DNA from: Thermoplasmata archaeon
GTDB taxonomy: Archaea; Thermoplasmatota; Thermoplasmata; Thermoplasmatales; Thermoplasmataceae
DNA length: 64,000 nt
NCBI GenBank assembly: GCA_021794355.1
Contig: JAJYRA010000029.1
Coordinates: 1-64,000, forward strand
Direction: 5' to 3'
The position numbers and the translations under genes were made by a program. Below the pieces are notes generated by a model. That model saw only the letters and a list, made by a program, of their open reading frames with translations. It made no database searches and had not been told where the DNA came from. Positions 22,134 to 52,050 of this stretch are shown one piece after another (the stretch's first letter is position 1; each line of letters starts with the position of its first letter).

Positions 22134-23285
22134 TTGAAAAGGCTCAGCGGAAGAAATAGCATCATTCTTTTACTCGTGCTCAGGGCACTGTATTCAATGA
22201 ACTGGTACAATGTTTCACCCATGCTTTTTGACATTACCTCAACCTACCATGTAAACGCTTCCCTTTCAGGCCTCATACTGTCGGCTTTTCTTATGGGTAC
22301 AGGATTGTTCCAGATTCCTTCAGGGCTCGTTGCTTCAAAGATAGGATCAAAAAACACCGCCCTGACTGGCATGGCCATAATGTCTATCGCGGCAACCACC
22401 TCCCTGATCTCAAACAATTTTACGGTTTTTCTTGTTACGAGATTTATAGTTGGCCTCGGTTCGGCGTTTTTCTTTTCCTCGGGAATAGCTGTTCTCAACG
22501 ATATAGATGAGAAAAATGTCAGCAGGAATATAGCTGCGTTCAACACTGCCTTTGCTGTTGGCGGTGGATTCGGTGTGGTCGGATTCGCATACTTTCTTCA
22601 GTTTGCACCATGGCAATTACTTCTGGCCATTGGTGGATTTGTTACACTTATCCTCACCATTCTAGCCTTTATACTCATAACTGACCTCACTGTCAAAAGA
22701 ACAACTAGGGGGGATTTTGGAAAGAAGATCTACAAGAGAATCACATCAAAACCCCTCATATTGCTTTCCATGTCTCTGGCGGGATACTGGGGCCTAAACT
22801 TCACGTTTGAAGAATACCTACAGCCATACGCCACCAATCTGGGTTTCAGTGGGACAGTCTCCGGGTTTATAGGATCACTTTCACTCTTTGCAGGATTACT
22901 GGGAATGCTGTTGTTTGCATTTTTTGCAACAAAGAAGGCATCCATAGTGCTGCCAGGCCTTGTTGTATTCATTTCAGCCGTGATCGCATTTCAGTTTTTT
23001 GGGTTGCCCTATTATCTATTCCTCACAGCAATACTGGGTGGTAGCATAAGTGTCATAATATTTTCCCTGGAATATGCCTACGTGGTAAAGATTGAAAGTG
23101 AAAAACAGTTTGTAGCTCTTGGAATTTCCATAGTGAATGCACTCCAAATAGCCACAGGATCCACAATCACATTTCTCTTTGGGTACTTATTCGCCATCAA
23201 TCCGGAGGAATCGTGGATATGGCTGGGCATAATAGCCCTTCTTTTCCTGCCGCTGGGTGCATCTGTATGGAAAGTGAAAAACTAA
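22134..23285 (+). CDS. MFS transporter
   Basis: A 383-residue MFS protein with about twelve TM helices; loop 2-3 reads SGLVASKIGSKNTAL. It starts at TTG, supported by GGTGAT six bases upstream that overlaps the stop of the preceding PP-loop gene. The substrate is unknown. The pairing with an asparagine-synthase-like amidator could mean transport of an amino acid or a modified product (inference). Its stop overlaps the stop of the convergent MFS gene by four bases. Confidence 0.83.
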   Translation: MKRLSGRNSIILLLVLRALYSMNWYNVSPMLFDITSTYHVNASLSGLILSAFLMGTGLFQIPSGLVASKIGSKNTALTGMAIMSIAATTSLISNNFTVFLVTRFIVGLGSAFFFSSGIAVLNDIDEKNVSRNIAAFNTAFAVGGGFGVVGFAYFLQFAPWQLLLAIGGFVTLILTILAFILITDLTVKRTTRGDFGKKIYKRITSKPLILLSMSLAGYWGLNFTFEEYLQPYATNLGFSGTVSGFIGSLSLFAGLLGMLLFAFFATKKASIVLPGLVVFISAVIAFQFFGLPYYLFLTAILGGSISVIIFSLEYAYVVKIESEKQFVALGISIVNALQIATGSTITFLFGYLFAINPEESWIWLGIIALLFLPLGASVWKVKN

Positions 23286-24514
23286 TTGTTATGTTCGCTC
23301 ATATGAACCTTTTTCCAGAGTGGTATGGCAGAAATAAATAAAATAGTTCCAAGGATCATGATGGGATACCAGATAAGGCCAAGATCCGCAGCAAAAACGG
23401 TGAGTAAAAGAGTACCCAGCACCGGAGCCAATGGTGTAACCATGCCTGTGAGGACCTGGAAGGACGTGAAATACTGTCCCCTCTTATTCACAGGTGCAAT
23501 TCTACTGATAATGGTGTTTATGGATGGAGAAATGATGTTTTCACCCATGGTGATAAGAATTGTGTCAAGAACGAGAAAGGTAAACCCCTGGAAGAAAGGC
23601 AAAATGCTGAAGGATAGGAGATAAACTATATAGCCCAGATTAATCCTTCCAATATCGTCCATCTTTCTCAACAACCTGTTCACAGGAAGTTGCCCAAGTG
23701 TAACCACAACACCATTCACAGAGTATAGAATTCCAATGTCCAGATCAGTCATGTGGTCAAAGCCCTTCCAGAAGAATGTCAGCGTTGTTCCCCACTGTCC
23801 CATGATGAGGAAGAACAGTGAGATCAGTATTGCAACAATAAAAAATGGCCGGTCCTTAAACGCCTTCAGAATGTCTGGTTTCATGTTCAGCTGTTCATCT
23901 TTTTCTTCTCCTTTTACTGGTGCCGTTTTCTTCAGGAATTTCATATAAACAAATAGTTCGGTCACAGAGAATACTGAAGTTAACAAGAATATGTAGCCAT
24001 AGCCTATGCCAGCAATAAAACCACCTATGGCTGGTCCAAGGGAAAACCCAAGATTCTGAAGTATTCTGACTATACTGAAAGCGGAATTTCTCTCTGAAGC
24101 AGTTGAGTTGTCGGAGATAATAACATTGTCTGCTGCACCAATTATATTCATCAGGGGTTCGCTCAATATGAGAACTAAATAGATCAGGTACAGGTTGCTG
24201 TTACCGAATATGAACACAGTCAACAATATGAGAAGAACGGCCAGAAGGGTATTGGAAATTATAATCACTGTTCTGGGACCGTGCTTATCTATGAACCCTC
24301 CGGCCACCAGGGTTAGTGGCAGTGATGAAATTGCCATCAGGAATATTACAAAACCAATAATTAGATAGGGAACATGCCTGATCACCAGCAGGTATAGGGG
24401 CAGGAAAATCCACATCTGGGATCTGGCCAATACTCTGATAAACTGGTTTGATGCAACAACAGTTATTCCATTCCTCTTCATTAGGGATACAGTTTCAGAG
24501 TTAGAACCTATCAA
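23282..24514 (-). CDS. MFS transporter
   Basis: A 410-residue MFS protein with about twelve TM helices and the loop signature GGFIDKHGPRTV. GFSLGPAIGGFIAG ends the N-half, and MGENIISPSINTIISRIAPVNKRGQY is a conserved C-half stretch shared in pattern with the 16658-17830 carrier. The substrate is unknown. It is convergent with, and overlaps by four bases, the MFS gene on the plus strand. Confidence 0.83.
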   Translation of the reverse strand: MIGSNSETVSLMKRNGITVVASNQFIRVLARSQMWIFLPLYLLVIRHVPYLIIGFVIFLMAISSLPLTLVAGGFIDKHGPRTVIIISNTLLAVLLILLTVFIFGNSNLYLIYLVLILSEPLMNIIGAADNVIISDNSTASERNSAFSIVRILQNLGFSLGPAIGGFIAGIGYGYIFLLTSVFSVTELFVYMKFLKKTAPVKGEEKDEQLNMKPDILKAFKDRPFFIVAILISLFFLIMGQWGTTLTFFWKGFDHMTDLDIGILYSVNGVVVTLGQLPVNRLLRKMDDIGRINLGYIVYLLSFSILPFFQGFTFLVLDTILITMGENIISPSINTIISRIAPVNKRGQYFTSFQVLTGMVTPLAPVLGTLLLTVFAADLGLIWYPIMILGTILFISAIPLWKKVHMSEHNN

Positions 24515-24608
24515 TTATTTTCACACCCAATGTTTGATTTACATATAAGCATGATTTATTACACGCAGAATTACATTCAGTCGGACCATAACACACTAAT
24601 CTACTAAC

Positions 24609-25306
24609 GGCCTTTTCTAAAAACCCCTCTTCTTTCTCCGATCAGGTCTGATTGTATTTTGAGGTTACATGCTCTAGAGAATGCGTATTACAGCGGAGAA
24701 ATGCGTAATTGATTACAGATAGCTTTATACATAATATCATGATTCTTATCTATGGACATAGTAAATTACGACCTACATGAGAAATACGATCAGTTGAAGA
24801 AATTTGGCGATAAGCTTTCTGACATAAAGGATATGATAGATTGGGATCGGATCAAACCGATGCTTGATGATCTTTACAAGAACCATACAGGGGTGGGAGG
24901 TAGACCCAACTTTGATCCTGTGTTCATGGCCAAGATCCTGTTCCTTCAATCTCTATACAGTCTGGTAGATGAGACCATGGAGAAGGAGGTCTATGATCGG
25001 ATCTCCTTCATCAACTTCCTAGATTATCCTGAATCGATCCCAGATTCAAGGACAATCTGGCTCTTCAGGGAGAGATTGTCCTCAACAGGAAAGGACAAGA
25101 TGATCTGGGAGGGGATATGGAAAGAGTTTGAGGAGAAGGGCATAAGAGTAAAATCGGGTACAATACAAGATGCATCCTATGTAGAATCGGATCCGGGAAA
25201 GCACGGAAAGAAGAAGCCACCTCCCATCGATCTAAACAGAAATTTATTGAAATTCTTTCGAAAAGATAAGTAATTGGTGAAAATTTAATAGTTGTTAGAA
25301 ATTGTC
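24609..25306 (+). mobile_element. Remnant of an IS5-like element with TIR-like ends
   Basis: About 700 bases carry a truncated transposase (24752-25273). The right end GTTGTTAGAAATTGTC (25291-25306) matches the terminus TTTTTAGAAATCGTC of the 133-bp elements in this window at 13 of 15 positions. On the left, CCTTTTCTAAAAACCC (24611-24626) resembles the opposite terminus. The element lost the catalytic C-terminal half of its transposase by internal deletion. The left end is less certain because the matching stretch is AT-rich. Confidence 0.5.
24752..25273 (+). pseudogene. Truncated IS5/IS1182-like transposase (N-terminal DUF772 part)
   Basis: A 173-residue frame with the N-terminal transposase pattern: a DWDRIKPMLDDLY stretch, then GGRPNFDPVFMAKILFLQSL and the conserved FLDYPESIPDSRTIWLFRERL. 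It ends shortly after GTIQDASYVESDPGKHGKK, where the first catalytic Asp (DAS) of the DDE centre is present. The rest of the catalytic domain is missing, replaced by PPPIDLNRNLLKFFRKDK before the stop. It cannot be an active transposase. Confidence 0.85.
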
Positions 25307-25310
25307 TAAT

Positions 25311-25961
25311 ATGGAGATTTCGTACGATATTGACATCGAATTCAAAAGGGGAACCAAGAAGAAAGATTTGAATGCGATGAAAACTCTTATGAAAGGTGCA
25401 CTTCCCGACCTCAAAAAAACAGGCATAGCAGTTGAAGAGGATATAGGTGAGCTTATGGCCATTCACGTACCAAATATTACCCTTCGAGCTGTAATTTCTA
25501 AAGTTACTCACATCGGTATACAGTTGAAGAATGATTTGGAAGCGGGAAGGAGTTACGCAAATTCAATAATGAATAAGATAACTAATGATGTATTCAATGA
25601 TAGAAAAGAATTGATTTCAGAAATTGTGACCAGCATAAGATTTGACAGCGATATAGATAAGGATTTGGTAGGGAAATATATAAACATAAAGGAAGTCGAT
25701 AACTTCGGAAATAGGATTTTGAGGCAAATAGAACCTGGAAGTGTTGATTTCGAGACCCACAACGGAGAAATTCGAGAAGATTTTATTTTCATGGCTATCG
25801 GGAAAAGCAAAAGTATACTATTCTCAAGAACGGAAACAATGAAACAAATTCCAATGGACTTTGTTGAAGAAATGTTCAATAAAGGCAAAGGTGGCATGCA
25901 AGAAATAATTGAAAGCGAAGGAGTGAAGTTAATTGCAGGTATCATGAAAAAGTTAACCTGA
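25311..25961 (+). CDS. Hypothetical protein next to the IS remnant
   Basis: A 216-residue soluble protein of mixed charge, rich in Lys, Asp, Glu and Ile. No TM segment, signal peptide or metal motif is evident, and I do not recognise a family. ATG 25311 is chosen over the TTG at 25302. The ATG lies five bases after the right end of the IS remnant, and an AAATTTAATA tract about 25-30 bases upstream, inside the remnant, may be its TATA box. Its 3' end overlaps the IS110-like relic by nine bases on the other strand. It could be cargo or a neighbour captured by the insertion. Confidence 0.5.
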   Translation: MEISYDIDIEFKRGTKKKDLNAMKTLMKGALPDLKKTGIAVEEDIGELMAIHVPNITLRAVISKVTHIGIQLKNDLEAGRSYANSIMNKITNDVFNDRKELISEIVTSIRFDSDIDKDLVGKYINIKEVDNFGNRILRQIEPGSVDFETHNGEIREDFIFMAIGKSKSILFSRTETMKQIPMDFVEEMFNKGKGGMQEIIESEGVKLIAGIMKKLT

Positions 25962-26300
25962 CATGTCCCCCACCCTCATATTTTCTATAAATGTTTGCAT
26001 GTCTTCGGTGCTTACCCTTTTCACCCTGGAAGCGCTTGATTCCATATTCTTTATCTTCCTTGCATTCAGTTCACTGTAGTCATGGATGAATTCCCTGCCA
26101 TTTTTCAACATTGAGTATATGGCGGTGGACAGACTTCTCGCAACTGCAACAATGGCAACGTACTTGTTTCTCCTCTTCATGATTCGAAGGTATTTTTTCC
26201 TGTATTCAGGGCGTCTACTCCTATTTTTCCAAGTGACTTCTCAGAGAAGTATGGATTTGAATATAAGTTGGTATATCTTTGCTTCAAGGATTCGTCAAAC
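25953..26300 (-). pseudogene. IS110-like transposase C-terminal relic
   Basis: On the minus strand a frame reads SRRPEYRKKYLRIMKRRN and then KYVAIVAVARSLSTAIYSML. The basic stretch followed by hydrophobic AIVAVAR is the C-terminal end of IS110/IS116-type transposases. The frame continues open upstream to about 26370 without a start codon and without recognisable upstream transposase sequence; the catalytic DEDD and serine regions are absent. It is a fragment, not a gene. A plus-strand ATG frame of 43 codons at about 26314 overlaps it and has no support. Confidence 0.6.
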
Positions 26301-26574
26301 AAGGGGTTGATAGAATGAGTGAACCAGGACAGATTTGTGCAAGGGAAAGTGAGGCTGTGAAGGTCACAAAAATAATCCTAGCTGCCAAAAAGGTGCGCAG
26401 GATAAGTAAGAATCAAAGAGCTTTCACAAATTTTTGGTGTTAATTGGGTTGCGAAACCTGATGTGCAAATCTTATTCGAGCATCTTTATCACAGGAAATA
26501 GATAAACAATTTTTTCAGTTCTCTCATAGATAACATTAAATTTTTTGTTATAACCTGATTTCATTTGGTGAAAA

Positions 26575-26799
26575 TCTGACATATCTCCCCCGCATAGAAG
26601 AGAGGAGTTTTTTGGAATGAACTCAGCAATAAGCAGAATGTTTTTTGCACTCTCTCCACTTGTGGGAACCAGTCTATTGACAATGTTCATTTTTGAACCA
26701 ATGCTGACATGGATCTTCCTCTCGGTTGTTTCTGTTGCCATTCTCGCAGGGATTCTGTGTATTTATAGGCAAATAACCAGAAAAGAGTTATCTACCTAA
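26575..26799 (+). pseudogene. C-terminal relic of an MFS transporter
   Basis: The frame reads SDISPPHRREEFFGMNSAIS and then RMFFALSPLVG, the loop 10-11 and TM11-12 pattern of an MFS carrier, and ends with ILCIYRQITRKE. It is open from just before 26575, upstream of the first ATG (26617), but is cut off by a stop further upstream. Only about 75 of some 400 residues remain. With the IS110-like relic it marks this stretch as decayed accessory DNA. The bases from 26800 to 27013 show no further gene. Confidence 0.7.
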
Positions 26800-27013
26800 A
26801 ATATTTCTTTCTGGCATTAAACCATTTCCTGTACAACATCCAACCAGATTTTTCCAATTTAGACTGAGCCACCTTTACTTGGCTGAGGGTAATCAAGAGC
26901 TTGCCCATATAGGTGGGTACTGCATGTCATTACATATAAGTAGGGAAAAATCGCTCAAGGTATCCCAAGATAAATTATCAAAGTTCACAGCTGTTTATGA
27001 AGGTAGCATTTAA

Positions 27014-27856
27014 TTACAGCATTGCCAGAAATTCGGAAACGAGCATGAAACCTCTCTGTTCAAAAACTTCCCTTTCCTCTTTATCAACTGGTTCCAGGAA
27101 ATCTGCATATAAAAATGGGCCTTCTGATTTTTCGCTAGAAACCATGTTGCCCATTCTTTTTAAGGATTCTTGGATCTGTGTTTCATCCACGAATGGTTTA
27201 AATGCAGTTGCAACCTCACTTACTCCATTTCCATAATGATCCAACACTGAGACTATGTCATAAGCATCTTTATGTTTATAGCGATCGCCCAGTGCGATTC
27301 CTTTCGTGCCAAGACACCCCACTACATCAAGCATTTTAAAATCAATTTCTGTCATAGCACCATTAGGCATCTCTCCTTTCATGCGGTACAGGAAATTATG
27401 CTGTAAACCCAATTCTGCTCCCAACATAGTGCGTGCCCTCAGATCAGATTGCACTCCTCTATGGCGATGTTCCCTTCCCTCTCTCAGTTCCGGAGACGTG
27501 AGAAAATCCACCGTTATATCTCTATAAATATCATCCTTTCCCCTGATACTCCGCTCAAATGTGAACTGCTTACCGGGAGTTTGTTTCCACCCCGTTTCCA
27601 TTATCAATTCCACAATTGTCTGGTATTCATCATCCTCAACACGATCGGGATCCACAATAAGATCTATATCGATTGAACCGACATGCCTGAAATTGTCTTC
27701 CGGTGTCTTGTGTGACTCTAATAGCAGATATGGCACCCAACCTCCAATTAAAACGATGGCTTCCTTGTAAGGCCTTAGTGTGCGAATTAACTCAACGAGG
27801 GCACTCTTTGAGGTGACGATTAATTGATCTTCAAAAATCCGATGAAATACGTGTCT
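27014..27856 (-). CDS. AbiEii-like nucleotidyltransferase (toxin), start unclear
   Basis: This is a nucleotidyltransferase of the AbiEii/AbiGii kind. The conserved LIGGWVPYLLLE and then HVGSIDIDLIVD form the GG...DxD core of the fold. Conventional gene calling would begin at GTG 27736, but that removes the GGW motif. The same frame is open and homologous-looking upstream to 27856, directly after the TAA of the AbiEi-like gene, and contains no ATG, GTG or TTG in those 120 bases. The two genes share one reading frame. AbiEii toxins of type IV systems modify tRNA or GTP metabolism; the partner is the antitoxin. I annotate the full open stretch. Confidence 0.72.
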   Translation of the reverse strand, partial: RHVFHRIFEDQLIVTSKSALVELIRTLRPYKEAIVLIGGWVPYLLLESHKTPEDNFRHVGSIDIDLIVDPDRVEDDEYQTIVELIMETGWKQTPGKQFTFERSIRGKDDIYRDITVDFLTSPELREGREHRHRGVQSDLRARTMLGAELGLQHNFLYRMKGEMPNGAMTEIDFKMLDVVGCLGTKGIALGDRYKHKDAYDIVSVLDHYGNGVSEVATAFKPFVDETQIQESLKRMGNMVSSEKSEGPFLYADFLEPVDKEEREVFEQRGFMLVSEFLAML

Positions 27857-28939
27857 TTAAGAGGTATCTACCTCACTGATGTTTTTCTCAAGAAGTTTTT
27901 CTGCCTGCTCTCGCCCACGAGCCGGGTAAGTGAATAGATCTATATAGAGTTGGATGTTACTAACCACTTTTACGCCCCTGATTTCCCGGAAATCCATAAA
28001 GATGCCATCGTCATAGGGCTCAAAAATCCTGATGTTGGCTCCAGATGTTGTTGGTCTAAGATCAAGTTTCCTTACCAAATTATCTATGTCGCCGGATACG
28101 TATACCCAGACATCGTTATACCTTACAAATGGTGATACCATAGATGCCCCAGCCATTCCGGTTAATGCATATTTCAAATCCAGTTCATCACCTACCTTGA
28201 CGACTTTTGATATTATTTCCTCCGGGTTTTTTGCAAAAGAGAAGAAACCAGTTGATCTGCTCTTTTCTACTGTCCAGTTTGATGCCCAATCCTTGAGAAG
28301 TCTTTTCGGATCTACTAGTTTAATGCTCTTATTTATTTCTCGTGAGATATAGCCTTTATCTTCAAGCTGATTTATGACAAAGTAAACTCCGGCAGGGCTC
28401 ATTCTACAGATACTGGCAAGTTCTGTAATCTTCCACTGAGTATCGGGAGCATTAAGGATTGTTCGTATAATGCGAGTCGCTTTGGGCGCAAATATGCCTC
28501 TACTGAGACGCCTCTCTGTTTCCCTCTCATTGTTGCTGATACGATCCACGAGAACTGAGCCAAATTTTAGATATACATCCCCTATTAAATCAATATAACC
28601 GATGTTTTCCGAGGTTAAAATTTCCCTTGACTTTTCACCAACATAAGGGGCAGCGAACACTGGGTATTTTTCCTTATCATTTCCAACCAATTTCCTTAGT
28701 TGATAAATGGAACTTTGGACAATTCGCGGCTCTCCACTGGATTTAACCTCAATAAGTAGGCATTTTTCAAGATCTCCAATTCGAGCTTTGACTATGACAT
28801 CAGCGCGACTACGTTTGCCTATTGATACTTCTAAAGATATGTCTTCTATGTTCAAATTTGGCAGCAGAATGGGTAGTTTTTCAGCGAGCTTAGCAATGGT
28901 CTCCCGCTCATTCATCGGATGATATTTAGTGGAATACAT
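27857..28939 (-). CDS. AbiEi-like winged-helix antitoxin/regulator
   Basis: A 360-residue protein with two parts. Residues about 20-120 resemble a restriction-endonuclase-like fold (ADVIVKARIGDLEKCLLIEV and KSSGEP). Residues about 165-220 form a winged helix (WKITELASICRMSPAGVYFV, LEDKGYISRE). The remainder matches the C-terminal domain of AbiEi-type regulators. In type IV toxin-antitoxin systems AbiEi represses its own promoter and antagonises AbiEii. A perfect 16-bp palindrome lies four bases upstream of the ATG. A second ATG at 28915 would place that palindrome over the promoter, as expected for autoregulation. Confidence 0.75.
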   Translation of the reverse strand: MYSTKYHPMNERETIAKLAEKLPILLPNLNIEDISLEVSIGKRSRADVIVKARIGDLEKCLLIEVKSSGEPRIVQSSIYQLRKLVGNDKEKYPVFAAPYVGEKSREILTSENIGYIDLIGDVYLKFGSVLVDRISNNERETERRLSRGIFAPKATRIIRTILNAPDTQWKITELASICRMSPAGVYFVINQLEDKGYISREINKSIKLVDPKRLLKDWASNWTVEKSRSTGFFSFAKNPEEIISKVVKVGDELDLKYALTGMAGASMVSPFVRYNDVWVYVSGDIDNLVRKLDLRPTTSGANIRIFEPYDDGIFMDFREIRGVKVVSNIQLYIDLFTYPARGREQAEKLLEKNISEVDTS

Positions 28940-28942
28940 ATT

Positions 28943-28958
28943 TTTACCAATTGGTAAA
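28943..28958. promoter_or_regulatory. Palindrome upstream of the AbiEi-like gene
   Basis: TTTACCAATTGGTAAA is a perfect 16-bp palindrome, and GGTAAATTACC overlaps it to form a second, shorter one. Its place immediately before the AbiEi-like start suggests an autoregulatory operator. Confidence 0.5.
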
Positions 28959-29013
28959 TTACCTAATTGTATTCAAAATGGATGTCGATTCAAAATATTA
29001 ATGGTTTTCTATG

Positions 29014-30288
29014 TCAAGCTTGAAGTAACCATTTCCACAGCGGTATTGCTTTAATAGCGGTCCCCTCATAACTGAAAATATCTTCATAATTCCACGTTAT
29101 CAGAATAAGTTTAGTGCAATGGAGCAGAGCCGACGCACTAATGAGCGATTTTATTTCCCTTTTCTCTATGTCATCCTTGCTTTCTGAGTATGTCACATTG
29201 ATAAGCTCTTTCACATCTATTCCTGATTTTAAAACGAAGTCAACTTCATGATCGTTGTAGTCCTTGAAGTAATATATTTCCAAGTTTCCCATAAAATAGC
29301 TTCTCCTCCTCAAAAGATCAATGTAGACGATGTTTTCCATCATATTCCCAATGTTTTCGGTTGATCTTGATGATGCATGATTGATCATGCCGGTATCAAT
29401 GCAGTATGTTTTCTTTACGCTTTTCTCTATTTCCTTTGGCTTGAATGAAAATTTCTTCAGTTGAAGAATCAGGTAGGACTCTTCCAGATACGATAAATAG
29501 TTTTTTGCTGTGTGGTCGCTTTTCAATCCAAAATCATTCTTTATTTTATTATAGCTTACGTATTTCCCGGCATTTCCGATCATGGTCATGGCTATCTCCC
29601 TGAAAGTGCTCTTATACGATATGTTGAACCTGGAAATTATGTCCTTTTCCACGAGGTCGTCATATAAACTCTTAAGGTAAGGCCCTGGGCTCTCCCCGCT
29701 CACTACTTCCGGGAATCCGCCATTGTTCTTGTAATTGTCTAGCTCATGCTTAATCAAATTCTCATCCCTTGTTGTTTCCGGGTTTCGATTAATCTTCTTT
29801 GAAATTAAGTGTTCCCTGAAACTGAAAGGGAAAATTTCAAGCGGAATATGCCTTCCTGTGAGATGTGTAGATAGCTCCTTACTCAACAACCTGGAGCTTG
29901 AACCCGTAAGAAATACATTATAACCATTCCTGTGCAGCTTGTTTACAAATAATTCCCATCTATCCACATTCTGAATTTCATCAAGAAAAATTATATTGAA
30001 CCTCCCGTTAAGTTCAACCAACATTGAAAGTATATCGTCAGGATCGGCGTTCAGAAGAATTCTCTCATCAAAATTTACATATCCCACATTTTTTCCTGAA
30101 AGCATTGAAGCCGTAAACGTTGATTTTCCAGACCGCCTCACTCCAACAATGGTCTTGATTAAAGTGCTCTTTTCGTAGATTTCATAGTTCTTGCTGAACT
30201 CACGCTCAATATAGTTATCCTTGTGGATAATATGCTGGAATTCTCCCTGTTGGTCCCGAAGTATAGTCTTCACATTCATTGCATTCAT
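29014..30288 (-). CDS. DUF4143-type AAA ATPase
   Basis: A 424-residue ATPase of the AAA_14/DUF4143 type. Walker A is GVRRSGKSTF, Walker B is IIFLDEIQN, sensor 1 is LTGSSSRLLS, followed by TGRHIPLEIFPFSFREHL. The C-terminal DUF4143 part includes YFKDYNDHEVDFVLKSGIDV, which carries an endonuclease-like D-E/D-x-V pattern. Family members are abundant in archaea; their function is unsettled, and many lie near mobile DNA. ATG 30288 is preferred over the TTG at 30354: a TATA-like TTAATACTAAAC lies about 20 bases before it, and a palindrome covers the TTG. Confidence 0.85.
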   Translation of the reverse strand: MNAMNVKTILRDQQGEFQHIIHKDNYIEREFSKNYEIYEKSTLIKTIVGVRRSGKSTFTASMLSGKNVGYVNFDERILLNADPDDILSMLVELNGRFNIIFLDEIQNVDRWELFVNKLHRNGYNVFLTGSSSRLLSKELSTHLTGRHIPLEIFPFSFREHLISKKINRNPETTRDENLIKHELDNYKNNGGFPEVVSGESPGPYLKSLYDDLVEKDIISRFNISYKSTFREIAMTMIGNAGKYVSYNKIKNDFGLKSDHTAKNYLSYLEESYLILQLKKFSFKPKEIEKSVKKTYCIDTGMINHASSRSTENIGNMMENIVYIDLLRRRSYFMGNLEIYYFKDYNDHEVDFVLKSGIDVKELINVTYSESKDDIEKREIKSLISASALLHCTKLILITWNYEDIFSYEGTAIKAIPLWKWLLQA

Positions 30289-30339
30289 AACACGAAGTTT
30301 AGTATTAATCTTCGCATTATCAGTGCAAATAATGCCAAC

Positions 30340-30355
30340 ATTGGTTATAACCAAT
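30340..30355. promoter_or_regulatory. Palindrome upstream of the DUF4143 ATPase
   Basis: ATTGGTTATAACCAAT is a perfect 16-bp palindrome 52 bases upstream of the preferred ATPase start. It shares the half-sites TTGGT and ACCAA, in inverted order, with the palindrome at 28943-28958. Confidence 0.4.
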
Positions 30356-30442
30356 CACTAAAAAACAGATTTAAGAGGGTGGGACGTAATTATTTTTTAC
30401 CTTTTTCCTGATTTGTTCAAGTATTTTTGTAGAGTTGAGTCG

Positions 30443-30628
30443 CTATTCCCTGTCCATCTCCCCTTCTGATTTTGTGATTATTACGTATACTCTCTTGCCC
30501 AGGTACCTTCTGGGCACATCTGCCTTTGCAGATGTCCCCTGCTTGGTTACTGTCCTTTCCAGTATGCCTTCTATTTTATCGTCTGTTATGCTCAACCTGT
30601 TATCAAGGACAAAGACTTTCCTGCTCAC
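30443..30628 (-). CDS. DUF2080-like transposon-associated small protein
   Basis: A 61-residue protein, GTG start, reading KIEGILERTVTKQGTSAKAD and then VPRRYLGKRVYVIITKSEGE. The pattern VTKxGxxAxxxVPxxYxGKxVxVI matches DUF2080 proteins, small SpoVT/AbrB-like swapped-hairpin proteins encoded by archaeal transposons. They probably bind DNA and regulate their element. No transposase is left next to it. A degenerate second copy on the opposite strand lies 75 bases away. Confidence 0.65.
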   Translation of the reverse strand: MSRKVFVLDNRLSITDDKIEGILERTVTKQGTSAKADVPRRYLGKRVYVIITKSEGEMDRE

Positions 30629-30703
30629 ATGGAGTTACCGCAACAATCAATATAAGTATGTCTATAGACATGCTCTTATTAATGCAGGTCATACAGTATA
30701 GAA

Positions 30704-30862
30704 ATGGTGAAGATAGAGGAAAAAACAGAGATCACAGTGAAGGGAATATAGGGATTTGTTGAGAGGAGAGTCACAAAGTTTGGATCAGGCGCAAAGGTAG
30801 ACTGCCCCAAGGAATTCCTTGGTGGGAGGGTTTATCTTATAATAACTCGGAACAAGGAATAG
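30704..30862 (+). pseudogene. Second DUF2080-like copy with a nonsense codon
   Basis: From ATG 30704 the frame reads MVKIEEKTEITVKGI, then a TAG at 30749-30751, then GFVERRVTKFGSGAKVDCPK and EFLGGRVYLIITRNKE. It aligns throughout with the intact copy at 30443-30628, so a single nonsense mutation broke it. The bases from 30863 to 31138 show nothing further. Confidence 0.7.
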
Positions 30863-31138
30863 TGTCCCACACTCGCTGGATCGCTGATAATTGCCGGTTT
30901 GTGAGCGTAGTGAGTAAAATCAATGAAAAAGTTAGGTGATTAAGGTATTAATCTTCTAACAATCTCCCAACGCGTGTGTATAATTCTGCTCCAAAATAAG
31001 CAGCCCAAATAAAAAATATATTTTTCCGATGTTAAGGAGTCAGTTTTTGTTTTCATCGTATGATGTGATGGAGCTCGCTTCTTCGTTCAATCAAGAGACG
31101 TATCAAAGTTAATTAAGATTGGATCATTTGTTCATTCA

Positions 31139-31840
31139 ATGGAAATCAACCTAGATGCGGTTCTATTAGAATTGTCTAAATCAAGACCTATTTTTCACGG
31201 TGAATCCGATTTTCAATTTTCTTTGGCATGGAAGATCAAATCTATGTCTCCCGAGATTGAAGTTCGCTTAGAAGTCCCGTTTTTGGGTATTGATCAGCGA
31301 CGAATACGTTTGGATATACTATGCAAAGACCAAAATGGAACTTCGTATGGGATCGAACTGAAATATTTTACAAGAAAACTTGTCACACAATGTGGCGATG
31401 AATCATTCAAGTTAAGAGATCGGGGTGCAATCGACCACCAATGTTTTGATTCCATCAAAGACATCCAGCGGCTGGAAGGTTTGGTTGACTCTGACAAGAT
31501 CTCTGTTGGTTACACTGTTTGGCTGACCAATGACAAGTCAATATGGGAGAGAAGTTGGGAGAGAAGTAAAAAAAGTGCATTCTACGAACAATTCAGGCTT
31601 TTTGAGGGTCGAGAAATTAAAGGTAGAATGGACTGGGGTGAGGGGACAAGCCTTGGCACAAAAAAGGGGAGAAACTACTCACTGAGTTTGATAGGGACTT
31701 ATAAGATTGCTTGGTACGATTATAGTAACATGGATAAGTGCTTCAAAAGTGGATATAACGGCAACGATCTCTTCAGATATTCACTAACGAGGATTTCTAA
31801 TAACCGTAAAAATGGAATCTTTCAATTCATTGACTCTTGA
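31139..31840 (+). CDS. PD-(D/E)XK nuclease-like protein
   Basis: A 233-residue protein with a PD-(D/E)XK pattern: Glu22 in FHGESDFQFSLAWKI, Asp59 in RLDILC, and Glu73-x-Lys75 in YGIELKYFTRK. This is the nuclease core seen in restriction and transposon-defence enzymes. The DNA target is unknown. It sits in the accessory island with the AbiE-like pair, so a defence role is likely but not shown. The last 17 residues (RISNNRKNGIFQFIDS and stop) are encoded by the 133-bp repeat element, so the native C-terminus was probably replaced. Confidence 0.6.
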   Translation: MEINLDAVLLELSKSRPIFHGESDFQFSLAWKIKSMSPEIEVRLEVPFLGIDQRRIRLDILCKDQNGTSYGIELKYFTRKLVTQCGDESFKLRDRGAIDHQCFDSIKDIQRLEGLVDSDKISVGYTVWLTNDKSIWERSWERSKKSAFYEQFRLFEGREIKGRMDWGEGTSLGTKKGRNYSLSLIGTYKIAWYDYSNMDKCFKSGYNGNDLFRYSLTRISNNRKNGIFQFIDS

Positions 31841-31921
31841 TGAAAAAGGCGTATCCGTCTGTGTTAGGGGAAACCTATCAGGTTAGGGTTCTTCAGGATA
31901 CTTGGGTTTTTAGAAATCGTC
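31789..31921 (+). mobile_element. 133-bp MITE-like element, copy 1
   Basis: The element begins GAGGATTTCTAATAACC and ends GGTTTTTAGAAATCGTC; the ends are 17-bp inverted repeats with three mismatches. Two other copies of exactly 133 bp are at 41607-41739 (reverse) and 51918-52050. It provides the 3' end of the nuclease-like gene and overlaps the stop codon of the convergent radical SAM gene. Confidence 0.85.
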
Positions 31922-33050
31922 AATAGGAGTTTATCGTTTTATTGAAAGCATTTTTCTGTCTCACTGGAATATAAAGGCACATGGGATCTGATTCCAGGTA
32001 ATTTCCCGTTTCATGATATGCCCTGGCTCTCGATCCGCCACAGTCTAAATTAAATTCACAGTTTGAACACTTTCCCACAAGATTTTTTGGATCCAATAAA
32101 TTGCCTAAAACATCGCTGTCCTTAACAATATCACCTATTTTATTTATTTTCACGTTTCCTAGCTTTAAATCAAACAATCCGGAAACATACACATTGCCTG
32201 TGGAGGACAAAAATAGAGTTCTAGTCTTTCTTGAATTCTGTTTCCTTGAAGGTATTTCCAAACTCATCAGATCGAGTCCACAAAGACGTCGAGTTTCTTT
32301 CACAAGTTCTCTGAAAATTTCTCCACCCTCAACCCTTCCCTCTTCAATGACCTGGGCTTCAATGCGTTTTATTTCTGGTGCTTCCACTGTCCTTATGGAG
32401 TATCCACCCAGTTTAAGAAGATAAAGATATTTCAACACTTCTTCAGAATCAATAGAGGATATGGGCTCCTCATTGGCTCCCCTTCCTGTTTTTATCAGGA
32501 AGAAAAGTTCCCATGTCCTGATTCCAAGTTTGTTTAATGTGTAAAGTACAAAGGGCAATTCCATCATGTTTCTTCGCATGATGGTTGTGTTTATCTGCAA
32601 CTTTAAGTCTTCAGCTCTTATCATACTTGCAATTTCCACAGTTTTCCTGAAGGAACCTTTCATATTTCTTATATGATCATGAGTTGAAGGGGACCCGTCA
32701 ATAGATAGGGATATGGATTTTACACCATTTTCTTCCATCGAAAAAAGCGTTTCTGGATTAAGCTTGTCTCCTGCAGACATACTGACAGAAAAGTTCAAGT
32801 CGAGATGGGTAGCATCTGCCATAATCCCATTAAAATCTGGGTGCATAAGCGGATTTCCACCTGTGAAGACAATATGGGGCTTTCTTGGAAAGGACTGGGA
32901 TATATTTTCCAAAACGCTCTTAATCATCGGTCTCCTCATTTCATCATCCCCAAATTTTTCTATGGACGAAGCCCTGCAATGGATACACTTATAATCGCAG
33001 GCTTTTGTTAATTCTATAAAAAATAAATCCGGGATATAGTTCTGATCCAT
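31920..33050 (-). CDS. Radical SAM/SPASM protein
   Basis: A 376-residue radical SAM enzyme. Cys18, Cys22 and Cys25 (ACDYKCIHC) bind the [4Fe-4S] cluster that cleaves AdoMet. A C-terminal SPASM-type region has CSNCEFNLDCGGSRARAYHE and PMC for an auxiliary cluster. The ELTKACxxxCxHCRA start resembles the AhbC/AhbD and TIGR04053 groups, so a role in alternative heme synthesis is possible, as is peptide modification; I cannot decide. The stop codon straddles the edge of the 133-bp element. The start faces rmuC across a short AT-rich spacer. Confidence 0.78.
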   Translation of the reverse strand: MDQNYIPDLFFIELTKACDYKCIHCRASSIEKFGDDEMRRPMIKSVLENISQSFPRKPHIVFTGGNPLMHPDFNGIMADATHLDLNFSVSMSAGDKLNPETLFSMEENGVKSISLSIDGSPSTHDHIRNMKGSFRKTVEIASMIRAEDLKLQINTTIMRRNMMELPFVLYTLNKLGIRTWELFFLIKTGRGANEEPISSIDSEEVLKYLYLLKLGGYSIRTVEAPEIKRIEAQVIEEGRVEGGEIFRELVKETRRLCGLDLMSLEIPSRKQNSRKTRTLFLSSTGNVYVSGLFDLKLGNVKINKIGDIVKDSDVLGNLLDPKNLVGKCSNCEFNLDCGGSRARAYHETGNYLESDPMCLYIPVRQKNAFNKTINSY

Positions 33051-33216
33051 AAAATGATAATTAGGTAATTAAATATGAAATCATACCCCTACATATTAGC
33101 GTGAAATTCAAAACCATGACTTCAAATCTTAAAATAAATTTTTAAAAACTTACAGCGGAGCTACAGATCGTGGAAAATAATGGATAAAAATTTAAATGTC
33201 ATACACATGTCATACC

Positions 33217-34404
33217 ATGGATTCTCTGGAAATATTCCTTTCTGGTTTTCTTTCAGGATCTATTATTTTCATTGTGATTACGTATTTAATAGCTGCAAGG
33301 ACACATAGAATGGACATATTCAGGAATAGAGATATTATAAAATCCATTTCCATGGATGTCCTGAAAGAATCGACAGATCAGAACATCAAGGTTTCCGAGA
33401 ATGTACTGAAAAATGTCACAACGAACACTGCCGGTGTTCTGGAAGAAAAGAAGGCTGAACTGAAGTCCATAATTGACCCCCTGAGAATGGAACTGGATAA
33501 TTATCGTAAGGGAATAGAAAATATGGAAAATATCAGGCGTGAGGATTACGGTAACATAAAGCAATTTCTTCACAGCCTGGGAGAAATAACGTCTAAGATT
33601 CGCGACGAAACAATCTCAATGAACCAGATGCTTAAAAATTCACAGAGCAGGGGGAGATGGGGAGAAATCACGTTAAGGAGAATAGTCGAAAGTGCAGGAT
33701 TGGTTGAACATATTGATTTTGATCAGCAAGTTCATATCGATAGCGGTGAAAGACCAGATATGGTTATCCATCTTCCCGGTAATAAAGACGTTATCGTTGA
33801 CTCAAAGGCCCCCTACAAGAAATTTATGGAATCCCATGAGGTCGAAGACCAGGACCAGAGAGAGAAAATTTTGAAAGAGTATGCCTTTGATTTGAGGAGA
33901 CAGATTAAAAACCTAAGTTCCAAAGATTATTCCCGAAAAATGGAGTTTTCTTATGAATTTATTGTGATGTTTCTTCCCCAGGAGAATATGCTGCAGAGTG
34001 CCATGAGTTATGATCAGGAACTGGTGGATTATGCCATATCAAACAAAATAGTCATGGCCACACCCCTAACCTTTTTTGCTCTTCTTAAGGTTATTCAGAT
34101 GTCGTGGAAAGAAGATTCCATGATCAGGAATTCAGGAAATCTGGTGAAGTTATCAGGAATAGTTTATGAAAGAATATCCGGCATGTATGAAAGGATCAAT
34201 AAGGCAGGAAAGGACATCAACACATTAATCAGGGATTATAACTCTCTGATAAGCTTCAGTGAGAGCAGGGTATTGCCTTCCCTGAAAAAAATGAACCAGA
34301 TAGGAGAATTAAGCAGATCGAACGTTGAAATTTCCTTTGATGTTGATGAATACGTCAGGGAACCGTCAGAGGAAAAATGGAAAGTTGAAGATGGTAAATC
34401 CTGA
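33217..34404 (+). CDS. rmuC: RmuC-family DNA recombination protein
   Basis: A 395-residue protein from the preferred ATG 33217 (the frame is open to 33196). One N-terminal TM helix (residues about 4-24) precedes a long coiled coil to about residue 130. The RmuC core follows: SRGRWGEITLRRIVESAGLV, RPDMVIHLPGNKDVIVDSKAP, and FLPQENMLQSAM. RmuC proteins have a PD-(D/E)XK-like nuclease core and limit inversion recombination in E. coli. A TATA-like AAAATTTAAAT 20-30 bases upstream of 33217 suggests a leaderless transcript. Confidence 0.9.
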   Translation: MDSLEIFLSGFLSGSIIFIVITYLIAARTHRMDIFRNRDIIKSISMDVLKESTDQNIKVSENVLKNVTTNTAGVLEEKKAELKSIIDPLRMELDNYRKGIENMENIRREDYGNIKQFLHSLGEITSKIRDETISMNQMLKNSQSRGRWGEITLRRIVESAGLVEHIDFDQQVHIDSGERPDMVIHLPGNKDVIVDSKAPYKKFMESHEVEDQDQREKILKEYAFDLRRQIKNLSSKDYSRKMEFSYEFIVMFLPQENMLQSAMSYDQELVDYAISNKIVMATPLTFFALLKVIQMSWKEDSMIRNSGNLVKLSGIVYERISGMYERINKAGKDINTLIRDYNSLISFSESRVLPSLKKMNQIGELSRSNVEISFDVDEYVREPSEEKWKVEDGKS

Positions 34405-39605: not shown

Positions 39606-41000
39606 ATGGTATCAAGAAAAGTAAAAACGGAAAGCATAAATGCTGCAAAATTGCAATATTCCAGCAAACACAATAGGTTTTTGAACAATGATGTTCCCAA
39701 GTACTCTTTTCCTGAGAGGGAGATGCAACCAAGGGCTGCGTATCAGTTAATACATGATGAACTAAATCTGGACGGAAACCCCGATCTTAATCTAGCAACC
39801 TTTGTCACCACATGGATGGAACCTGAGGCCGATAAGCTGATCATTGAGAACCTGCATAAAAATTTCATAGATCATTTTGAATACCCACAGGTTGAGGTGA
39901 TTGAGGAGAGAATAGTGAATATCATGGCTAACCTTTACAACGTACCAGATAAGGAAGATTTCATTGGAACATCCACCATTGGTTCTTCAGAGGCCATAAT
40001 GCTCGGACTTCTTGCGCATAAATGGAACTGGAAGCAAAAACGCATAAAGGAAAAGAAGAGTTTCGATAGACCAAATGTGGTTTTTGGTGGAGATACTCAT
40101 GTTTCATGGGACAAGTTCGCCAGGTATTTTGATGTTGAACCCAGGGTTGTTCCAATTGCAGCGGATCATTTTACCATTGACTCCGATAGAGTTAAAGAAA
40201 TGGTTGATGAGAATACCATTGCAGTTGGGGTTGTTCTTGGAACAACATTCACCGGTGAATTTGATCCTGTTTCAGAAATCAATCAGATGCTTCTGGATCT
40301 GAAAAAGGAGAAGGGGCTTGATGTGCCAATTCACGTGGATGCTGCCAGTGCTGGCTTCATAACCCCCTTTTATGAACCTGATTTTAAATGGGACTTCAGG
40401 TTAGAACAGGTTAAATCCATAAATACCTCAGGGCACAAATTTGGCTTGGTATATCCAGGTCTCGGATGGCTCATATTCAGAAATGAAAAACTACTACCTG
40501 AAGAACTGAAGTTTTATGTGAATTATTTGGGTGATGAAATGCCAACTTATACACTCAACTTTTCCGAAGGCAGTTCAATGATAGTCGCTCAATATTACAA
40601 TATATTGAGACTTGGGAAGGAAGGGTACTCTTCCATTGTATGCAAAATGATGTCAAATGCCCATTATCTGGCTGATCAACTGAAGAAGTCCGGTGAGTTT
40701 GAACTTCTAAATGATGCAAAGCATATTCCCGTTGTCACATTCAAACTTAAGGATGAGGGAAAATTTACAGCCTTTGATCTATCCTATAAGATACGGGAGA
40801 GGGGCTGGATTGTACCGGCTTATTCATTGCCTCCAAAGGCTGAGAAAACAACCATTATGAGAGTTGTTATAAGGGAAAATTTCACTGCAGATATGGTTGA
40901 TATTTTTGTATCGGATTTAGTAAAAGCTAAGAAAACCCTTGATAAGGGCACGAAAACGCCTGAACAAAGAGATGTCAGGAAAGGACATCCAGTGTCCTAA
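39606..41000 (+). CDS. gadB: Glutamate decarboxylase
   Basis: A 464-residue group II PLP decarboxylase. TFVTTWMEPEADKL, GTSTIGSSEAIMLG, HVDAASAGF and INTSGHKFG (PLP Lys278) match GadB. The enzyme turns glutamate into GABA, using up a proton, and underlies glutamate-dependent acid resistance. ATG 39606 is chosen because the GTGA at 39597 then acts as a ribosome-binding site. No glutamate/GABA antiporter gene is near; a small two-TM protein follows on the other strand. In an acidophile it would help pH balance (inference), or it may be an archaeal tyrosine/aspartate decarboxylase, which is less likely from the motif set. Confidence 0.9.
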   Translation: MVSRKVKTESINAAKLQYSSKHNRFLNNDVPKYSFPEREMQPRAAYQLIHDELNLDGNPDLNLATFVTTWMEPEADKLIIENLHKNFIDHFEYPQVEVIEERIVNIMANLYNVPDKEDFIGTSTIGSSEAIMLGLLAHKWNWKQKRIKEKKSFDRPNVVFGGDTHVSWDKFARYFDVEPRVVPIAADHFTIDSDRVKEMVDENTIAVGVVLGTTFTGEFDPVSEINQMLLDLKKEKGLDVPIHVDAASAGFITPFYEPDFKWDFRLEQVKSINTSGHKFGLVYPGLGWLIFRNEKLLPEELKFYVNYLGDEMPTYTLNFSEGSSMIVAQYYNILRLGKEGYSSIVCKMMSNAHYLADQLKKSGEFELLNDAKHIPVVTFKLKDEGKFTAFDLSYKIRERGWIVPAYSLPPKAEKTTIMRVVIRENFTADMVDIFVSDLVKAKKTLDKGTKTPEQRDVRKGHPVS

Positions 41001-41036
41001 TATTTCCTTGGATTTTAGAAAAATAAGATATTTGGT

Positions 41037-41255
41037 TCACAGATCAAATTTGTTAGTATAATATTTTCCGATTAATATGTTAGCAAACATCACAAACCCT
41101 GAAGCTATGGTTGCGGTCAAAAATCCTACAATAATGGAAAAAATCATAGAATCATTAAAAAGTAGAAATGCAAGTGGCACAAAAGCGACGAAATAGCTGC
41201 CCGATGTGACTGCGGCTAATTTCACTGCATTTCTCCTATTTAGAGCCTGATACAT
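41037..41255 (-). CDS. Small two-TM membrane protein
   Basis: A 72-residue protein with two hydrophobic helices (about 18-36 and 40-62) and a basic N-terminus, ending KYYTNKFDL. I do not recognise a family. Its size and the convergent position beside gadB may be coincidence. The frame is consistent with membrane codon use, which is the main support for its being real. Confidence 0.4.
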   Translation of the reverse strand: MYQALNRRNAVKLAAVTSGSYFVAFVPLAFLLFNDSMIFSIIVGFLTATIASGFVMFANILIGKYYTNKFDL

Positions 41256-41606
41256 GGCAGATTTATTCTGACGGATTATTTAAGAGTGCCTTGAGACTGA
41301 TGGGAGTGGTATAATTCATCCTTATTACGAAATACATGAGGGGATTGCCGGTTATTTCTTTGCTTTTCACTATTAAACCTTAATTTTCCAATGCGCTTGT
41401 TGATCCGGTTACTTTTAAGTTCTCAGAAAGTCCGGTATAGAACCTATTCTTCGGCATGGTCGTCCCTCTTGATATGGATCGCATTTATCATTGGGATTTC
41501 TCTTGCCTTTTCATGTTTCTCTTTCCTACATTCTTCCCCAACTCAATTGCAACTTATCTTAATATATATTTAATCCCATAAGACAAGTTTGCCTCAATAT
41601 TTAAGG
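41256..41606. other. 350-base spacer left of element copy 2
   Basis: No gene is supported. A plus-strand frame of 60 codons from ATG 41391 is hydrophobic at its end, but has no recognisable domain or good start context. Confidence 0.4.
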
Positions 41607-41739
41607 GACGATTTCTAAAAACATAGGTTTCTTGGAAAACCCTAACTTAATAAGTTTCCCTCAACGCGTACGGATAAGCCTTTTCCTTCAAGAGTCAATG
41701 AATTGAAAGATTCCATTTTTACGGTTATTAGAAATCCTC
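41607..41739 (-). mobile_element. 133-bp MITE-like element, copy 2 (reverse orientation)
   Basis: Reverse complement of the element at 31789-31921, same length, with the same terminal repeats (GACGATTTCTAAAAAC and TTATTAGAAATCCTC as read on the plus strand). Flanking AAG on both sides may be a 3-bp target duplication. Confidence 0.85.
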
Positions 41740-41848
41740 AAGGGTAGTTCGTATGAGTCAAATAGAAAAACAGCTCAGTTTTTAAAGTACCCTTTTCATG
41801 CAAATTAAAAATTGGTCTCTGTTGATTATATTGCTGTTCTGCTTTTCT

Positions 41849-42109
41849 CTATTTCCCTGGTTTCCCCCTGAGTCCAACTATTGTAAGAACTATGCCAATT
41901 ATGATGAAAATTCCCCCTGCAATGATTCCACTTATACCTACATTATAATCATTTTCCGCTTTATTATAATAACTCTTACTAAGGAGACCCAACCCGCCAT
42001 AGGCGTTTACCAAAGCAGTGTAGTTTCCGTATGCTATTATTCCAAATACCAAACTGATAAATCCTATTATCAACAAAATAATTCCAAAAATAATAATTCC
42101 ATCTCTCAT
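41849..42109 (-). CDS. Small membrane protein, two TM
   Basis: An 86-residue protein: helix 1 is residues about 5-27 (IIIFGIILLIIGFISLVFGI), an outer loop has Tyr, Asn and Lys, and helix 2 is about 58-80 (ISGIIAGGIFIIIGIVLTIV), ending in a basic GKPGK tail. It resembles many small archaeal hairpin membrane proteins of unknown role. No partner gene is adjacent. Confidence 0.5.
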   Translation of the reverse strand: MRDGIIIFGIILLIIGFISLVFGIIAYGNYTALVNAYGGLGLLSKSYYNKAENDYNVGISGIIAGGIFIIIGIVLTIVGLRGKPGK

Positions 42110-42482
42110 ATTATTAAATAAGCACTGAGTATAATAATATTCCTATATTCCCTTGTAATATTCCATATGGTATCAAAGCACCCTTAGTCTTTAATCTGTG
42201 CAATTCCCTCTTTCGGTTCCTTTGCTGATAGCTGATAGTTTGCTTCCGGTACGCGGCTATATACACTGTCCAGCTATTGAGCAAGATGCTCATGTGTAAA
42301 GTCGATCATGTTTACTGTGAATAACCAGGTATCTCGATTAATCACCTTAACCAGATCGTGGAACAGAAAGACTGAGATTATTATGGCTCCGTTCGTTGCT
42401 TAATAGACAGTTGGTCTGACTGGATGCAGTAAATAATTAAATGGGCCTTTCAGTGAGGGAATACTATGAGGATTTGACATTA
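42110..42482. other. Spacer upstream of the VapBC-like pair
   Basis: About 370 bases without a recognisable gene on either strand. The right end leads into the direct repeats before vapB. Confidence 0.4.
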
Positions 42483-42509
42483 ATGTAAATGTTTATAACA
42501 TGTAAATGT
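42483..42509. promoter_or_regulatory. Direct repeats upstream of vapB, candidate operator
   Basis: ATGTAAATGT occurs twice exactly, at 42483-42492 and 42500-42509, 17 bases apart centre to centre. This lies just before ATG 42521 and overlaps an alternative in-frame ATG at 42506. The arrangement suits binding by the antitoxin-toxin complex for autoregulation. Confidence 0.4.
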
Positions 42510-42520
42510 ATAGTACGTAT

Positions 42521-42754
42521 ATGGGGAAAACTGTCACTGTAAACCTCGATGAAGCTGTTGAAAAGAAATTCAGGGAAAAGGCAATGCTAAAGTATGGAAA
42601 CAGAAAAGGGTCTCTTGCCAAGGCACTCAATGAAGCACTTGAACAGTGGCTCAAAAGCGACGGTAAAGACGTGTTAAGCGAGAACTTAAGATTACTAGAC
42701 ACTGGCATAGAGATGAAGAAATGGGTATTCAAACGTGAAGATTTGTATGAATGA
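42521..42754 (+). CDS. vapB: VapB-like antitoxin
   Basis: A 77-residue protein: MGKTVTVNLDEAVEKKFREK is a ribbon-helix-helix-like DNA-binding start, and a C-terminal acidic/Trp-containing tail (MKKWVFKREDLYE) would thread into the toxin's active site. ATG 42521 is preferred over 42506, which sits inside a direct repeat. The gene overlaps the PIN-domain gene by eight bases, typical of an antitoxin-toxin operon in that order. Confidence 0.82.
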   Translation: MGKTVTVNLDEAVEKKFREKAMLKYGNRKGSLAKALNEALEQWLKSDGKDVLSENLRLLDTGIEMKKWVFKREDLYE

Positions 42755-43175
42755 TGACATCTTTTACGACACAAACATCCTCTTTTACGCTTACGATCTC
42801 TCTGAACCAAGTAAGAGGGAGGTGTGCAAAACACTGGTTGGTCGAGTATTTAGTGGTGAGACTAAAGGATTTATTTCCAATCAGATACTTGTGGAACTGT
42901 ATAATGCACTGACACGCAAACTTGGGGTGAAAGCAGATACGGCGAACCTGATCGTTGAGTCTTTCTTGGCTTCACCGAATTGGCTTAAGATCAGCTATAA
43001 CCACTTCACTATCAAATCCGCCCTAAATACATCAAAAGCCTTTGGAGCTCCTTTTCTTGATTCACTCATTGCAGAGACTATGAAGGAGAACAGCATAAGT
43101 CATATAATCACGGAAAATGAGAGGGATTTTATGCAAATATCAGGAATATATGTCGAGAACCCAGTCAAACATTAG
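42747..43175 (+). CDS. vapC: VapC-like PIN-domain ribonuclease toxin
   Basis: A 142-residue PIN-domain protein from ATG 42747 (a GTG at 42735 is also in frame). The acidic cluster is Asp8 in IFYDTNILFYAYD, a Glu in QILVELYNALTRK, and Asp in GAPFLDSLIAE, with NERDF near the end. VapC toxins cleave tRNA or rRNA to stop translation; the target here is unknown. The start overlaps vapB. Confidence 0.85.
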   Translation: MNDDIFYDTNILFYAYDLSEPSKREVCKTLVGRVFSGETKGFISNQILVELYNALTRKLGVKADTANLIVESFLASPNWLKISYNHFTIKSALNTSKAFGAPFLDSLIAETMKENSISHIITENERDFMQISGIYVENPVKH

Positions 43176-43307
43176 GGTTATGGTTCTTATCAGCTAAGAA
43201 CAATTGAATCCTGGCATACTCGGATAAGCACAAAGATCAGAGGGAATTCTCTTTTTTAATGATAAATTTACTTGTTGAAAAATGCGGTATTCAATAGGTT
43301 TTATCTT

Positions 43308-43658: not shown

Positions 43659-43711
43659 TATATGCGAAACAGTCTAAGGCAACATAGGAACATTGTCAAA
43701 CTGGAAAAATA

Positions 43712-43784: not shown

Positions 43785-43822
43785 TTTCGATCTGGAGATA
43801 TTTCATTTTCATATTTAGTTTT

Positions 43823-51917: not shown

Positions 51918-52050
51918 GAGGATTTCTAATAACCGCAAGAATGGAATCTTTCGCTTCATTGACACTAGATGGAAAAGGCGTATCCGTCAGTGTTGGGAGA
52001 AGCCTATCAAGTTAGGGTTCCCCAGGAAATCGAGGTTTTTAGAAACCGTC
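51918..52050 (+). mobile_element. 133-bp MITE-like element, copy 3
   Basis: Same orientation and length as copy 1, with a few substitutions (for example CGCAAGAATGG for CGTAAAAATGG). AACA flanks both sides and may be a 4-bp target duplication. In this copy a reading frame RISNNRKNGIFRFIDTRWKR runs through the whole element and ends at TAA about 52070-52075. Confidence 0.85.

Follow-up and report, generated by a model that had tools for sequence, protein, structure and literature searches.

A MITE at the probable edge of an archaeal genomic island supplies the stop codons of two convergent genes

Two stop codons at one short element

In a 64,000-nucleotide stretch of a Thermoplasmata archaeon draft genome (the window, below), a nuclease-like gene and a radical SAM gene run towards each other and both end at the same short repeat. 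How did a single element come to close two genes? The initial annotation saw in it a MITE that had hopped between two convergent neighbours, rewriting the C-terminus of one protein and fixing the end of the other. The features concerned are:

31139..31840, + strand: PD-(D/E)XK-like nuclease gene, island cargo, labelled by eye from its D...E-x-K motif
31789..31921, + strand: MITE copy 1, IS5-family-derived, right-hand edge of the island, 133 bp, no transposase gene
31789..31805, + strand: left TIR of MITE copy 1, GAGGATTTCTAATAACC, 17 bp
31905..31921, - strand: right TIR of MITE copy 1, GACGATTTCTAAAAACC, 17 bp
31790..31840, + strand: tail RISNNRKNGIFQFIDS of the nuclease and its TGA stop, both supplied by the element, 16 codons plus stop
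31920..33050, - strand: radical SAM/SPASM gene, best NCBIfam match TIGR04053, below its cut-off

Both stop codons had been placed correctly to the base (31838-31840 and, on the minus strand, 31922-31920). The repeat had been given as 31780-31930, a range that does contain the element, whose precise limits are 31789-31921.

The nuclease-like protein ends in ...FRYSLT/RISNNRKNGIFQFIDS, where the slash marks the entry into the MITE, and its stop codon TGA lies 50-52 bases into the element (start 31789). We looked for element-free homologues with the same final residues and found none. All nine aligned homologues without the MITE end differently (FKYSIVEVGGSK, FKYTIISI and FRFLYLPVARP, each before a stop, are among these ends); they stop soon past the F-x-Y strand, and their tails vary strongly in length and sequence. 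The R and I contributed by the MITE occupy the position of E-V or S-I in the homologues, and the other 14 residues of the tail have no counterpart in the closest of them. The body of the protein is complete. Judged from these alignments, the C-terminus of the nuclease is truly element-encoded, as the initial annotation had it, and we infer that the tail is tolerated rather than functional. For annotation purposes, the last 14-16 residues are best left out of family building.

The nuclease-like protein has no Pfam or NCBIfam match, its single-sequence AlphaFold model has a mean pLDDT of 32.5, and its gene has the lowest codon score among the 44 ORFs of the window. It is absent from all 11 congeners, and a wider search of the class found it in the source genome only. 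The better relatives, none of them a close homologue, come from G037 (39% identity) and from plasmids of bacteria and haloarchaea. Those on haloarchaeal plasmids (L141, L144) stand beside BREX-5 pglZ or pglX genes, and others (L139, L142) among phage packaging or capsid genes.

The repeat family and its IS5-family parent

The repeat is real far beyond chance. Three copies lie within the window, the second and third being

41607..41739, - strand: MITE copy 2, with an exact 4-bp target duplication
51918..52050, + strand: MITE copy 3, with an exact 4-bp target duplication

and the draft genome holds 25 elements (27 rows in the genome search, from which the 25-nt fragment L027 was dropped and two halves on contigs C33 and C17 were counted as one element). 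The 17-bp TIRs show two or three mismatches end versus end in well-kept copies. The 4-bp flanks agree with at most one mismatch in 20 of the 25 elements; when flanks of different elements were paired as a control, 65 of 552 pairs did so. Copy 1 is among the five elements that do not show a recognisable target duplication (TAAC versus AATA, three mismatches).

The left TIR is letter-for-letter the repeat that stands beside IS5/DUF772 transposase matches in three relatives (G048, G051 and G053), at a distance of about 70-210 bases from the match, and a one-base variant stands beside IS5-type transposase matches in G104 and G032; the label MITE is right because of this identity. Two such repeats bracket a decayed IS copy of 1081 bp in G048 (602094-603174), and G104 carries a copy with a stop in its transposase and exact TTAG/TTAG flanks (1039219-1040363). 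These insertion sequences are thus like the MITE family in the 17-bp left TIR (identical in G048, one base off in G104) and in their 4-bp target duplication. They differ from it in that they contain transposase sequence, decayed or interrupted as it is; at 1.08-1.15 kb, they have only the terminal repeats in common with the MITE. The IS copies of G044, G113 and G053 with the repeat GACAWTTTC were considered as the closest parent and set aside, as several TIR positions differ and the GAGGATTTC group fits better. By all sequence criteria tested, the element is an ordinary non-autonomous IS5-family MITE, presumably moved in trans by an IS5-family transposase; calling it a MITE was well founded, given the IS5-type TIR match and the target duplications of most copies.

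The window itself contains a related element:

24609..25307, + strand: internally deleted IS5-family copy, 699 bp, TIRs GGCCTTTTCTAAAAACC / GACAATTTCTAACAACT, flanks TAAC/TAAT
24752..25273, + strand: truncated IS5-family (DUF772) transposase ORF, 173 aa, best NCBIfam match IS5, below its cut-off

This transposase retains DUF772 only, whereas a full-length relative in G044 has DUF772 and DDE_Tnp_1. The deleted copy is a stage between IS and MITE.

Closing a sizeable gene is exceptional for this family: among all elements of the genome, copy 1 alone ends an ORF of at least 100 aa. Eight other ORFs (42-89 aa) enter MITEs from outside; seven end inside and one, at L002, reads through. Codon scores are negative in seven of the eight, but the score is a weak test because the nuclease gene itself scores negative.

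Beyond the source genome, a DNA search of 117 genomes of the order found no MITE match in any congener. Matches of any kind occur in six of the 117 (source genome included), four of the six being weaker or partial. G061, of another genus, has three copies (L065 and L070) at 83-86% identity. Read together, the copies in G061 and the lack of matches in congeners suggest transfer.

Several further observations concern the family. One MITE is split by a contig break, its parts lying at the end of C33 (L021) and the start of C17 (L019) with TGCA on both outer sides, which suggests that these two contigs join. At L008 (G000:C10:5920-6073), a MITE copy is followed directly by the right end of an IS, AATAGTTGTTAGAAATTGTC, and the pair is flanked by TACC/AACC; it is possibly a composite unit. 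Another short element, related to the MITE and with termini resembling GACAATTTCTAAAACCC / GAAGATTTCTATAAACC, occurs at L100 (2136-2268), L102 (2385-2497) and L103 (1983-2116). A search against Rfam matched two tRNAs only.

Transcription termination at the element

One role that the initial annotation thought possible for the element is that of a bidirectional transcription terminator, which would shield the convergent genes from each other. Copy 1 has T5 tracts on both strands:

31907..31911, + strand: T5 tract, 67 bases past the nuclease stop
31843..31847, - strand: T5 tract downstream of the radical SAM stop
31808-31812, - strand: second minus-strand T5 tract downstream of the radical SAM stop

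T5 on both strands is present in 16 of the 24 full-length copies, compared with 9% of 133-base segments drawn at random from the window, and for Pyrococcus RNA polymerase in vitro T5 is described as a sufficient, minimal signal for which hairpins are not needed (PMC2253867). However, the tracts were inherited once and not 24 times, since the copies are related, and T5 is found within 100 bases past the stop in 21 of the 44 window genes anyway. Nor are the MITE copies concentrated in convergent gaps: of 26 rows classified with a crude gene finder, 2 were convergent, 6 divergent, 11 tandem and 7 undecided (copy 1 came out as tandem because the nuclease gene escaped the finder). A hairpin scan found no hairpin-plus-T terminator. 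Going by these sequence features, we consider a terminator role possible but rather unlikely.

The element as the border of an island

The surroundings of copy 1 bear directly on how the two gene ends arose:

23282..24514, - strand: backbone MFS-like gene, named by eye, adjacent to the radical SAM gene in the ancestral order
24609..31921, no strand assigned: island, about 7.3 kb, that congeners lack between their MFS-like and radical SAM genes
25311..25961, + strand: island ORF, 216 aa, no significant family match
27014..27736, - strand: AbiEii-like nucleotidyltransferase, island cargo, weak (20.1 bits versus a Pfam cut-off of 22.5)
27857..28939, - strand: AbiEi_2 antitoxin-like regulator, island cargo, AbiEi_2 match above its cut-off
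29014..30354, - strand: AAA_14 / DUF4143 ATPase, island cargo, PADLOC candidate PDC-S01
33196..34404, + strand: backbone gene that flanks the radical SAM gene away from the island, putatively RmuC-like (named by eye)

We found that the MFS-like, radical SAM and RmuC-like genes are contiguous in 9 of the 11 congeners; of the remaining two, G056 has a contig that ends inside the radical SAM gene and G049 has only a 36%-identical relative. In the window, the MFS-like gene lies 7.4 kb from the radical SAM gene. The intervening island begins with the deleted IS5-family copy on its left (24609) and ends with MITE copy 1 on its right (31921), and its ORFs match none of the syntenic stretches in G048, G052 and G054. 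The cargo is defence-like; the AbiEi-like gene and the weakly matching AbiEii-like gene next to it are a candidate type IV toxin-antitoxin pair of the AbiE kind. On both sides of it, gene order is largely conserved relative to G048. Near-full-length relatives of the AbiEi protein (71-82% identity) occur in seven other genomes of 101 searched, spread over five genera, and the source genome has a second AbiEi copy.

The 64 kb contain three other breaks in gene order versus G048, at 13640-16658, 41000-43823 and 46327-52471. MITE copy 2 lies in the second, which borders on a tRNA gene (43712-43784); in the third are MITE copy 3 and an ORF of 1578 aa that has internal repeats.

Copy 1 thus separates island DNA (left) from backbone DNA (right). 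Taken with the missing target duplication, this arrangement indicates a junction and not a simple insertion between resident genes. Missing target duplications have been ascribed to decay, recombination or adjacent deletions (PMC11708052). As a control we considered two further copies, L023, between trm and pyrB (adjacent in 4 congeners), and L006, between archease and decarboxylase genes (adjacent in 6; these names were given by eye). Both lie between genes that are adjacent in congeners and are plain insertions, so that MITEs are not taken as general markers of islands. L006 has two mismatches between its flanks, and because it is a plain insertion by gene order, a poor duplication alone is no proof of a junction. 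Mutation could instead account for the missing duplication of copy 1, the other copies being only 78-92% identical to it. A 6-mer, ACTAAC, stands to the left of both the IS and the MITE; we treat it as chance rather than as a hidden duplication because the MITE-side copy is nuclease coding sequence.

The reading we favour, with a probability of about 0.72, is that MITE copy 1 is the border of an island that split an old gene pair and that, in this position, it closes both genes. Under this reading, an island of 7.3 kb would have separated the ancestral MFS-like and radical SAM genes, with the internally deleted IS5-family copy as its left border and MITE copy 1 as its right. At the right border the nuclease gene would have been deprived of its original final codons and stop; it now reads 16 codons and a stop in the MITE. 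For the radical SAM gene, the final T of the frame happens to form TGA with the GA of the terminal repeat, presumably near the former native stop. The border itself would have been made through recombination, an adjacent deletion or atypical transposition at the MITE, and not through a fresh insertion.

The end of the radical SAM gene

The radical SAM protein ends in ...NKTINSY, and the T of its stop belongs to the flank while GA represents the first two bases of the MITE terminal repeat. Its stop therefore does straddle the edge of the element, as initially noted. Past the C-x-Y-x-P motif, the tail measures about 0-15 residues in homologues and 14 in the window (27 usable homologues of 29, one wrong ORF and one sequence cut at a contig end being excluded). 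If the island flanks are joined with no base removed (TATTGTTAG), the frame ends in ...NSYC and a stop, one residue longer, 89 bases from the MFS-like start. If either 4-bp flank is subtracted as a duplication, the radical SAM frame reads through. We favour the join with no base removed because congeners have short radical SAM tails. The stop recovered by this join could be due to chance, a nearby chance stop being not unlikely. Since the tail is variable and the join is only one residue longer, the radical SAM protein was probably hardly changed: on comparison of sequences, it is probably unchanged to within one residue. To say that the element fixed the end of this gene is therefore an overstatement.

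Alternative origins of the junction

One alternative to the border reading is the scenario of the initial annotation: both genes would already have been resident and convergent when a MITE landed between them, giving one of them a new end and determining where the other stops. The coordinates and the reading frames agree with this scenario, most MITE copies have target duplications, and the two control copies are plain insertions. In a variant, the MITE may have entered the last codons of the nuclease after the island was in place and later lost its duplication. Yet the nuclease gene did not originally adjoin the radical SAM gene, as the gene order of 9 of the 11 congeners and the absence of the nuclease from all 11 attest, and copy 1 has no target duplication. 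We consider insertion between resident neighbours decidedly unlikely, and this part of the initial annotation is not upheld.

It is equally doubtful that the island moved as one unit, with an IS5-family transposase acting on its two outermost TIRs, the one of the deleted IS at 24609 and the one of the MITE at 31921. Both edges of the island are exactly such repeats; 39-nt arms at 24588-24626 and 31904-31942 are inverted and 74% complementary, and MITE-bracketed and cassette-type units are described from bacteria (PMC5444012). Against this, the outer flanks read TAAC and AATA where a 4-bp duplication is expected, and the IS has a near-duplication of its own (TAAC/TAAT), as if it had entered alone. 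A second copy of the unit was not seen, and within about 1.5 kb of AbiEi relatives at eight loci there was no convincing repeat of this kind. We therefore do not describe the island as a compound transposon: the outer target duplication is absent, although the outer ends are compatible inverted repeats. A further-reaching version, which we hold to be highly improbable, would pair the dead IS with the MITE as the termini of a mobile cassette by which defence-like genes pass from one archaeon to another, with a MITE end suited to closing genes. Were it true, the MITE TIR would give TGA, TAA or a short open tail depending on frame, plus T5 on both strands.

An assembly artefact, that is a false join through a 25-copy repeat, is barely plausible: the genome is a draft of 89 contigs, one other MITE copy is broken at a contig end, and copy 1 has exact runs of up to 52 bases in common with another copy, but the broken copy has exact runs of 81-124 bases in common with others, and a single contig carries the MFS-like gene on one side of the island and the radical SAM gene on the other, arranged and oriented as in the ancestral locus.

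Comparison with known systems

The locus offers a clean example of short non-autonomous elements becoming gene ends. Two genes that have a MITE in common need not have been neighbours when the MITE arrived, and a MITE-edged island illustrates one way in which an archaeal core locus can take up accessory genes and show no obvious damage.

MITEs are known from several archaea (PMC10969869), and in Cuniculiplasma IS-associated genomic islands are described, some of them defence islands (PMC5155288). Rickettsia palindromic elements, of about 150 bp, add in-frame residues inside host genes (PMC10969869). They resemble MITE copy 1 in being short elements that add residues to host proteins; in the present family, in contrast, a single element out of 25 extends an ORF of at least 100 aa, and the residues it adds are terminal. 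Mobile insertion cassettes and MITE-bracketed units, as described in PMC5444012, are likewise non-autonomous, with IS-type inverted repeats and passenger genes. Unlike them, the island described here has two different elements as its ends and no matching outer target duplication.

The closest parallel is provided by QMITE1 and QMITE2 of Coxiella burnetii, multi-copy MITEs that, as here, supply a bare stop or a tail plus stop at the 3' ends of genes. Table 2 of that report lists 11 genes, with contributions that range from a bare stop to 16 residues and a stop: the overlap is 2 bp for ubiB and 1 bp for kdgK (bare stop in both) and 50 bp, or 16 residues, for nagZ (PMC5896051). The QMITEs are bacterial, are different elements and overlap functional resident genes, whereas the archaeal MITE stands at the edge of an island and one of its two genes is island cargo. 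Donation of stop codons by MITEs is therefore already published for bacteria; what the archaeal locus contributes is that a gene of island cargo and a gene of the backbone are closed by one and the same island-edge element.
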